From IMG/VR virus record IMGVR_UViG_3300023223_000583, positions 1 to 21,867 of that record: a stretch of DNA of 21,867 nt. One strand, written 5' to 3'. The stretch is from a virus. Made by a program: the position numbers and the translations under genes. This document shows, piece after piece, positions 19,829 through 21,779 of the stretch (position 1 is the stretch's first letter; every line of letters begins with the position of its first letter). Under the pieces are notes generated by a model, which did no database searches, was not told the DNA's origin, and worked only from the letters and a program-made list of their open reading frames with translations.

Positions 19829-20115
19829 CACTCAACCCTCCAAACTCTAATCCCGCCGTTAAACTTACGGACGACAAATTTATATTCATTTCCTTGCTTA
19901 AAAGCCCAAGATGACACTTGCGCTAAGATCTTGGAGGCATCAACCTGTTTATAAATATCTGAAGCCTGGAAGCTATCCCCGATATCCATTAAGTGAAGGG
20001 GAAAAAAATGGTGCTCAGGAGACTCCTTTCTTTTAGGAAGCGGAATGTTTTTGCTTATTGGGAACAGGTTTCTAGGTTGGAGAGCCTCGCTTAACTCATC
20101 GAATAGTTCGCTCAT
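19828..20115 (-). CDS. Small phage protein of DUF7303-like type, 95 aa
   Basis: ATG 20113-20115 overlaps the upstream TGA (ATGA); TGA 19828-19830. The layout is 'ISKNIPLPKRKESPEHHFFP', then 'LHLMDIGDSFQASDIYKQVD', a helix (ASKILAQVSSWAFKQG), and a closing 'YKFVVRKFNGGIRVWRVE'. The 'GDSF ... F.VRK..GG.RVWRV' pattern is one I associate with a widespread small phage domain, often called DUF7303. Its function is unknown, and the assignment is by eye. Confidence 0.75.
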   Translation of the reverse strand: MSELFDELSEALQPRNLFPISKNIPLPKRKESPEHHFFPLHLMDIGDSFQASDIYKQVDASKILAQVSSWAFKQGNEYKFVVRKFNGGIRVWRVE

Positions 20116-20354
20116 GATTGATCCTCCTCTCGTTGTTTTAACATGGCATCAGCTGCTTGATATGATGCTTGTGCAATATTTTTTAAATCAATACTTCCAT
20201 ATCCAGCGTTTATTATAAACGATTGCATAGCCTTTGTAGCGAAATAATCTCTAAGAGTCATTCCTTTGATATGAGCTTCTTTATTCCAGTTTCCGTCATA
20301 ATTTGGATTTATTACAGGAAACGCTTGTGGGTTTTTAGGTTTGTTATCTTCCAT
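20112..20354 (-). CDS. Small phage protein with GMTLRDYFA motif, 80 aa
   Basis: ATG 20352-20354 overlaps the stop of the upstream 55-residue gene by one base (TAATG); TGA 20112-20114. It contains 'AFPVINPNYDGNWNKEAHIK' followed by GMTLRDYFATKAMQSF and 'QASYQAADAMLKQREE'. The GMTLRDYFA helix plus the ADAML.RE tail is a very common hypothetical protein of phages and prophages in many hosts. Its biochemical role is not known to me. Confidence 0.8.
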   Translation of the reverse strand: MEDNKPKNPQAFPVINPNYDGNWNKEAHIKGMTLRDYFATKAMQSFIINAGYGSIDLKNIAQASYQAADAMLKQREEDQS

Positions 20355-20761: not shown

Positions 20762-21163
20762 TTATTCGCTAACTGACTCTATCAGAGAATCTAAATATTC
20801 ACAGTCATCTCCGCAAAGCTCTTCGTTGTTGTCTATAAAATTTCTTAGGTCAGAAACCATTTCCCCTATCTTCTCAGGATTTATTCCTTTACCGTAGGTG
20901 TTGTTTACTGCTTTGATATGTTTCAGTGCAAATTCAGTTGATAGTTCACATAAAATTTCATTGTCATTTTCAGGATCGTGATGGTTAGCAAATTCTTCTT
21001 CAGTAAGAATATCGTAACAAGGGGGCCCGACATTATCATAACCAGAATTGTATTCAGAATATAGTTCATCAGGAACCTCAACTTGAGCCTGTACTTTAAC
21101 CAAAATATATCTTGGCGTTTCCTCTGTGATCTTTTCTTTTCTGTGTAAGTTTGGTGATATCAT
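20762..21163 (-). CDS. Acidic hypothetical protein, 133 aa
   Basis: I start at ATG 21161-21163, not at an upstream in-frame ATG at 21251-21253. The intervening region is a structured non-coding leader, and the same 14-nt element precedes this ATG and the ATG of the gene upstream. The protein is strongly acidic (about 30 Asp/Glu against 10 Lys/Arg). It contains TPRYILVKVQAQVEVPDELY, then ILTEEEFANHHDPENDNE and the Cys-containing ELCGDDCEYLDSLIESVSE. It is soluble with no signal peptide. No family is recognised. Such acidic small proteins in phage early regions can act on host DNA-binding proteins, but nothing specific supports that here. Confidence 0.72.
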   Translation of the reverse strand: MISPNLHRKEKITEETPRYILVKVQAQVEVPDELYSEYNSGYDNVGPPCYDILTEEEFANHHDPENDNEILCELSTEFALKHIKAVNNTYGKGINPEKIGEMVSDLRNFIDNNEELCGDDCEYLDSLIESVSE

Positions 21164-21177
21164 AGTACAAAGTTTTT
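21164..21177 (-). repeat. 14-nt element abutting a start codon, copy 1
   Basis: Plus-strand AGTACAAAGTTTTT; read on the minus strand it is AAAAACTTTGTACT, immediately followed by ATG of the 133-residue gene. It is identical to the copy at 21461-21474. An inverted partial copy, AACTTTGT, lies at 21238-21245. Confidence 0.75.
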
Positions 21178-21258
21178 GGTTTCTCACCGCCGAAACCCCG
21201 TATCGGGTAGATACGAGGGTCGGTTTGTCCAACGGTGAACTTTGTGAAAACACCGAGG
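21164..21258 (-). promoter_or_regulatory. Structured 5' leader with alternative stems upstream of the 133-aa gene
   Basis: This is the only sizeable gap inside the leftward operon. In the minus-strand transcript there is a nine-pair hairpin (plus-strand arms 21196-21204 and 21210-21218, loop 21205-21209). TCACCG at 21184-21189 complements CGGTGA at 21233-21238, and ACAAAGTT at 21167-21174 complements AACTTTGT at 21238-21245; these would close a long stem over the start region. CGGTG at 21233-21237 can instead pair with CACCG at 21251-21255. The two pairings exclude each other, as in attenuators or riboswitches. No known riboswitch class is recognised. Confidence 0.5.
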
Positions 21259-21459
21259 TTATTCTATTACAAAGCCATATTCTTCTTCATAATCATGGCT
21301 TCCATGTTGTCCTGAAATCGTTCTTGTTTGGCCATTTTCCTCTTCAATGGTTACATTACCTCTAAATGATCCATTTTCACAGGTAGTAAAATCTAATTCT
21401 ACATTGTTTACTTTTTCGTGGTGAAGGTTTTCGTTGGTAATTTTAATTGTGGTTTCCAT
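21259..21459 (-). CDS. Small acidic protein, first gene of leftward operon, 66 aa
   Basis: I start at ATG 21457-21459, not at the upstream in-frame ATG (21526-21528), because that one lies upstream of the predicted transcription start. TAA 21259-21261. The protein is acidic (14 Asp/Glu against 4 Lys/Arg): METTIKITNENLHHEKVNNV, then 'ELDFTTCENGSFRGNVTIEE', and 'GQHGSHDYEEEYGFVIE'. It is probably a small beta-rich protein. First position behind the leftward promoter is typical of early host-takeover or regulatory genes. No family is recognised. Confidence 0.7.
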   Translation of the reverse strand: METTIKITNENLHHEKVNNVELDFTTCENGSFRGNVTIEEENGQTRTISGQHGSHDYEEEYGFVIE

Positions 21460-21460
21460 A

Positions 21461-21474
21461 AGTACAAAGTTTTT
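21461..21474 (-). repeat. 14-nt element next to a start codon, copy 2
   Basis: Same 14 bases as 21164-21177, here one base from ATG 21459-21457 (minus-strand reading AAAAACTTTGTACT, T, ATG). It lies within the short leader of the first leftward gene. Confidence 0.75.
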
Positions 21475-21497
21475 AAGGTTATATAGTAGTATACGGA

Positions 21498-21528
21498 CAA
21501 ACATAGGGAAAGTTACGTTTAATGCCAA
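21498..21528 (-). promoter_or_regulatory. Leftward Bacteroidetes-type promoter
   Basis: On the minus strand, TTG (plus-strand CAA 21526-21528), a 20-base spacer, then TATGTTTG (plus-strand CAAACATA 21498-21505), a perfect TAnnTTTG. The transcription start would be near 21490, leaving about 30 bases of leader before ATG 21459. It drives the nine-gene leftward operon. Confidence 0.8.
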
Positions 21529-21575: not shown

Positions 21576-21606
21576 TTGTATAAACAATTAATTATTTATA
21601 CATTTG
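21576..21606 (+). promoter_or_regulatory. Rightward Bacteroidetes-type promoter
   Basis: TTG 21576-21578, a 20-base spacer, TACATTTG 21599-21606 (perfect TAnnTTTG). Transcription would start about 21612-21614, at or next to ATG 21612, so the message should have little or no leader. An 8-bp-arm dyad overlaps the promoter. Confidence 0.8.
21577..21602. promoter_or_regulatory. Operator-like dyad overlapping the rightward promoter
   Basis: TGTATAAA (21577-21584) and TTTATACA (21595-21602) form perfect 8-base inverted arms around a 10-base A/T-rich centre. The right arm covers part of the -7 box. A direct repeat TTGTATA occurs at 21565-21571 and 21576-21582, so two related binding sites may exist. 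This is consistent with a phage repressor operator; the binding protein is not identified in the window. Confidence 0.6.
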
Positions 21607-21611
21607 TTGTC

Positions 21612-21779
21612 ATGGGATATCGAGAAAAAATGCATCAAGAAGTCAGAGAGGGGTTTGCCCTGCTTTATAAGGAGGGAGAAATGACCAAAGCCTCCGTTAT
21701 TGGCAAGCTTGCTAAGATACACAATTGTAGCGAATCTAACATCAAAAAAATTATCTATGATAGCTCAACAACTGCTTGA
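21612..21779 (+). CDS. Small HTH-like protein, 55 aa
   Basis: Start at ATG 21612, since it lies at the predicted transcription start; an in-frame ATG at 21576 is upstream of it. TGA 21777-21779. The protein is basic at the end and has a plausible helix-turn-helix: EMTKASVIGKLAKIHNCSES followed by NIKKIIYD. The middle 'REGFALLYKEGEMTKASVIG' is also helical. It may be a small transcriptional regulator made from the operator-controlled rightward promoter, possibly of Cro or activator type. The family is not identified. It overlaps the next gene by 23 bases. Confidence 0.6.
   Translation: MGYREKMHQEVREGFALLYKEGEMTKASVIGKLAKIHNCSESNIKKIIYDSSTTA

Follow-up and report, generated by a model that had tools for sequence, protein, structure and literature searches.

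The 95 nt between the first two genes of a leftward block in a probable Bacteroidota phage form, as minus-strand RNA, a single long hairpin whose stability is beyond chance, and we tentatively favour the reading that this is a static intercistronic hairpin in a two-gene phage message, setting the relative output of both genes. The initial annotation had proposed a translational switch at this position. The two-state model is coherent energetically, but most random gaps come closer to bistability, the second gene's start is closed to an ordinary degree, and the fold is absent beside relatives of the flanking genes.

The window (the whole 21.9 kb stretch of DNA that was analysed, virus record IMGVR_UViG_3300023223_000583) encodes a tape measure protein similar to its counterparts in Flavobacterium and Polaribacter phages, a resemblance that makes a host among the Bacteroidota probable. 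A leftward gene block at the right end of the window opens with a 66-aa gene followed by a 133-aa gene, and the gap between them has the size first given to it, extending from the stop codon at 21261–21259 to the ATG at 21163–21161. The three features are as follows:

21259–21459, minus strand: upstream gene, 66 aa, with a relative in L002 (51% identity)
21164–21258, minus strand: intercistronic gap with the hairpin, 95 nt
20762–21163, minus strand: downstream gene, 133 aa, with a motif, NNTYGKGINPE, common to other viral proteins

Both frames look like real genes, because the 66-aa protein has its relative in L002 and the NNTYGKGINPE motif of the 133-aa protein is shared by small viral proteins that differ otherwise (L115–L120). 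A stretch related to this motif is also present in a Clostridia bin (L122). The 80-aa protein encoded at 20112–20354 on the minus strand is related to PHROG 2201, which is mostly of Proteobacteria phages, and is found here in a probable Bacteroidota phage. GGAGG-like sequences lie just upstream of a few starts in the window (2061 on the plus strand; 20354, 20115 and 19828 on the minus strand), and most of the window's genes are without them.

The hairpin is composed of an outer stem (ACAAAGT/ACTTTGT), a main stem and an inner bulged hairpin, and its elements, together with the segment that offers an alternative pairing, are located as follows:

21251–21255, minus strand: CGGTG, alternative partner of CACCG (21237–21233) in the local-hairpin state
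21238–21245, minus strand: ACAAAGTT, 5′ arm of the outer stem; its ACAAAG is also pairable with CTTTGT at 21274–21269, the end of the upstream gene
21184–21238, minus strand: main hairpin, consisting of the TCACCGTTGG/TCGGCGGTGA stem and the inner hairpin at 21195–21220, with most pairing probabilities near 1
21167–21174, minus strand: AACTTTGT, 3′ arm of the outer stem, complementary to ACAAAGTT

All of the complementarities described in the initial annotation are present on the minus strand, with two adjustments of detail. The hairpin described there as having nine pairs exists, but has 10 pairs with a one-base bulge (21220–21195), and the start-side arm said to abut the start codon directly adjoins it only nearly, with AACTTTGT ending 3 nt before the ATG. 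CACCG (21237–21233) is complementary both to CGGTG at 21255–21251 and to CGGTG at 21189–21185 and, as had been noticed, these two pairings are mutually exclusive; the outer pairing of ACAAAGTT and the CACCG:CGGTGA pairing together make one nested structure. Folding with a partition function, the check that had been suggested, gives an ensemble dominated by one structure; an alternative fold, approximately 4–5 kcal/mol higher, emerges once the main helix is broken.

The hairpin goes beyond chance in several ways. First, the lowest fold energy of the record is that of the segment over the gap, among 1282 segments of 102 nt from both strands. Secondly, the gap fold has a z-score of −3.2, or of −3.4 in another shuffle set, with dinucleotides and flanks kept, of which only six in 3000 are equally stable. 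Thirdly, about 1.6% of shuffles contain an 8-mer near-start arm and about 1.6% a 5-mer that has two partners, and none of 3000 contains both; these two criteria were set post hoc, with the sequence already seen. The record-low energy and the scarcity of equally stable shuffles argue against a chance structure in an ordinary gap, whose near-start arm would come only from a 14-nt sequence shared with, or duplicated from, the neighbouring gene. This explanation nonetheless draws on the facts that 21 of the 1282 segments reach a z-score of −3.2 or lower, that the gap was chosen by an earlier reader as the most striking of many, that the 14-nt sequence precedes both genes, and that the closing of the second start exceeds that of shuffles only marginally (see below); we consider it unlikely.

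Similar standing is given to the idea that the RNA fold is a by-product of a DNA-level inverted repeat, such as an operator, a recombination scar or a small palindromic insertion, which is likewise a minority possibility. The plus strand folds nearly as strongly (−32.5 kcal/mol), the G+C content is 49% in the gap versus 40% in the window, and in L002 the relative of the upstream gene directly abuts the next gene with no gap, as for a modular junction. However, the two arms of the hairpin differ, a loop of 10 nt lying on one side only, and three of the pairs (21232/21190, 21231/21191 and 21229/21193) form only as G-U pairs of the minus strand, their plus-strand counterparts being A/C mismatches; these three weakly favour minus-strand RNA over a DNA-level repeat. 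Furthermore, no second copy was found in the window, in phages or in plasmids, and there is thus no sign of a mobile repeat.

The hairpin would be part of a leftward message if transcription begins upstream of the first gene, and box pairs with the Bacteroidota promoter consensus TAnnTTTG (PMC9723704) are located there:

21498–21528, minus strand: putative Bacteroidota-type promoter of the leftward message, TTG-N20-TATGTTTG
21576–21606, plus strand: putative divergent Bacteroidota-type box pair, TTG-N20-TAnnTTTG, with a 20-nt spacer

These divergent box pairs sit between the leftward block and a rightward gene at 21612–21779. The latter is small and has a weak helix-turn-helix match. TTG-N20-TAnnTTTG sites number five in the window, against a mean of 1.9 in whole-window shuffles, and the finding of two box pairs within about 110 bases, each oriented correctly for its gene block, is suggestive. 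Within the gap no TAnnTTTG box was found on the minus strand, and no Bacteroidota sigma-A promoter (TTG, 19–21 nt, TAnnTTTG) is present. From the promoter boxes, the simplest inference puts the start of the leftward message near 21492 and has it span both genes and the gap; with correctly spaced boxes upstream and no minus-strand box in the gap, the hairpin should be transcribed. It was also considered as a terminator and rejected as such, there being no terminator call at the gap and no U-tract after the stem, where the minus-strand 3′ sequence is GAAACCAAAAAC.

A different use of the start-side arm would be as a promoter, with AACTTTGT serving as a −7 box, the message of the second gene starting at or next to its ATG, and the hairpin having no part in its translation. 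In its favour, AAACTTTG differs from TAnnTTTG by one base and precedes each of the two start codons by about 10 nt. However, the conserved first T is missing, no TTG is suitably spaced, a canonical box pair is available further upstream, and leaderless messages account for only 5.5% in F. psychrophilum (PMC9723704), all of which makes this explanation highly improbable.

The reading proposed in the initial annotation is that of a true two-state translational switch, in which CGGTG:CACCG (or CTTTGT:ACAAAG) opens the second start and the long hairpin closes it, with the outcome decided by the upstream-gene ribosome, a protein or a small molecule. By calculation there are indeed two exclusive pairings, one of which hides the start site, as in a translational attenuator or switch. 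With a penalty on the main helix, the local hairpin of CGGTG (21255–21251) and CACCG (21237–21233), which the initial annotation had described, becomes the most stable fold, at 4.2 kcal/mol above the minimum, or about 5 kcal/mol if the folded RNA includes part of the second gene. Opening of the second start region costs 0.5 kcal/mol in the local-hairpin state and 5.2 kcal/mol in the long-hairpin state, which bears out, as a calculation, the claim that the latter hides it. Local pairings also come first as the transcript grows, and CTTTGT, within the final codons of the first gene, provides a second partner for ACAAAG; this pairing is slightly favoured (by 1.4 kcal/mol) if the transcript ends at the start codon, and is 3–6 kcal/mol less stable in contexts extending into the second gene. 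However, in 874 of 1000 shuffled gaps the longest helix can be broken at the same or a lower cost, so that their alternative is at least as close, and the closeness of the two states is ordinary rather than beyond chance.

The accessibility of the second start also speaks against a switch. It costs 5.8 kcal/mol to open, ranking 15th among the 28 gene starts in the window, and is no more hidden than the average start there. The corresponding cost in gap shuffles is 3.1 ± 1.3 kcal/mol, and the start is closed as much in 47 of 1000 shuffles for a wider region and 85 of 1000 for a narrower one, so that its closing is only marginally beyond that of the shuffles. The start of the first gene, which has no such hairpin, costs 4.2 kcal/mol to open in a local fold, and in a longer-message fold the order is reversed, at 7.2 kcal/mol for the first start versus 5.4 kcal/mol for the second. 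A ribosome modelled on the end of the upstream gene, on the 5′ side, shifts the cost of the second start by only about 0.5 kcal/mol, or by about 2 kcal/mol if its footprint covers the ACAAAGTT arm. In sum, the two states are no closer than those of shuffled gaps and the start is no more closed than those of ordinary genes, and we regard a true switch as improbable.

A 14-nt sequence repeated before the two genes includes the start-side arm of the outer stem:

21164–21177, minus strand: AAAAACTTTGTACT, copy before the downstream gene
21461–21474, minus strand: AAAAACTTTGTACT, exact repeat before the upstream gene

Among the 28 upstream regions no shared match is longer than this one, at 14 nt compared to at most 12 nt in 200 shuffles. 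The copies lie 0–1 nt before the ATG of these adjacent genes, each with AACC just upstream, and AAAAACTTTGTACT and AACC together look like a duplicated start region or a common target of a regulator. Probably the element has a role of its own at both starts or arose by duplication, and the outer stem may be a consequence of it. A promoter reading of the 14-nt element was rejected, the boxes being missing. A DNA scan for the element adjoining an ATG gave 33 matches, nearly all ahead of frames with early stops; the one convincing match (L105) has the element inside the end of the upstream coding sequence, and was set aside as probably a coincidence. A Bacteroidota phage switch built on the repeat, in which the arm hides the start region with the 14-nt sequence of the two genes and is flipped by the upstream-gene ribosome or by a phage factor binding the shared element, is in our estimation quite doubtful.

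Comparative searches were made with the gap and with the proteins encoded around it. No Rfam family scored above its gathering threshold (the best score was a chance-level 16.5 bits, versus thresholds of 39–105), in agreement with the remark that known riboswitch classes do not obviously match. The gap DNA has no homologues beyond chance in 50,697 phage records and 72,556 plasmids, collections that may omit the window's very near records, and a scan of IMG/VR DNA with a 15-base pattern of the hairpin loop gave 78 matches, approximately the chance number, none of which extends along the gap. Protein scans of IMG/VR and genomes, using the downstream, upstream and tape measure proteins as queries, gave one useful relative of the upstream gene (L002) and, for the downstream gene, a few distant ones (L115–L120). 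The leaders of the latter are A-rich and weakly folded (−6 to −12 kcal/mol), and together with the missing gap in L002 this indicates that the fold does not travel with either flanking gene, at least among these distant relatives. The tape-measure-related phages hattifnatt9-1 and Freya_1 gave nothing comparable, and in hattifnatt9-1 the first and second leftward genes are separated by a gap that folds weakly (−8.4 kcal/mol).

The controls for bistability, start closure, ribosome footprint and AAAAACTTTGTACT give no support to a switch, and we prefer the static hairpin as the most economical explanation. Transcription would begin ahead of the first gene, at the Bacteroidota-type promoter, and read through the gap, and the inter-gene RNA is calculated to fold into one long, essentially static hairpin. 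This would moderately lower the accessibility of the second start region and, judging only from the kind of structure, may shield the message of the first gene from 3′ decay; neither a ligand nor regulated switching would be required. With the difference from the gap shuffles in opening cost counted for it, the effect on the second start would be one of modest tuning, and near-start structure tunes initiation in Flavobacterium johnsoniae (PMC6847099). Against the static hairpin stand the lack of a homologue of the gap, and hence of any conservation, the almost equal folding of the plus strand, and a start that is not above the window average in closure. There is no evidence of selection for switching, and only a calculation, which random sequences would often satisfy as well, speaks for the suggested undescribed regulatory switch. 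Bacteroidota are largely without Shine-Dalgarno sites, and a true switch would be a case of a Bacteroidota phage controlling a start site that has no Shine-Dalgarno sequence; the regulatory RNAs of such phages are, to our knowledge, little known. As it stands, the intercistronic hairpin is well folded, has no known relatives and is of local interest.

Several known systems offer comparisons. The Flavo-1 RNA motif of Flavobacteria is likewise a structured RNA of Bacteroidota, with an unknown role (PMC9723704), but is not among the Rfam matches listed for the gap, even at E-values up to 5. The gap has in common with translation-controlling riboswitches a structured leader with a start-site arm, and differs in its position between genes and in having no Rfam match, conservation or known ligand-binding core. 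Leaders of the erm type are translational attenuators, and share with this region a short upstream gene, alternative pairings, and one arm adjoining the downstream start. However, the upstream gene here encodes 66 aa and has a relative elsewhere, and is thus not a mere stalling leader peptide; moreover, one state is favoured in nearly all contexts tested, and no Shine-Dalgarno site is hidden. Intercistronic hairpins of the REP and puf types set relative expression in polycistronic messages. Although the gap hairpin is without a conserved sequence family and is here a predicted fold, it resembles them in being a stable stem-loop between co-directional genes of one inferred message, with no U-tract and a fold beyond chance.
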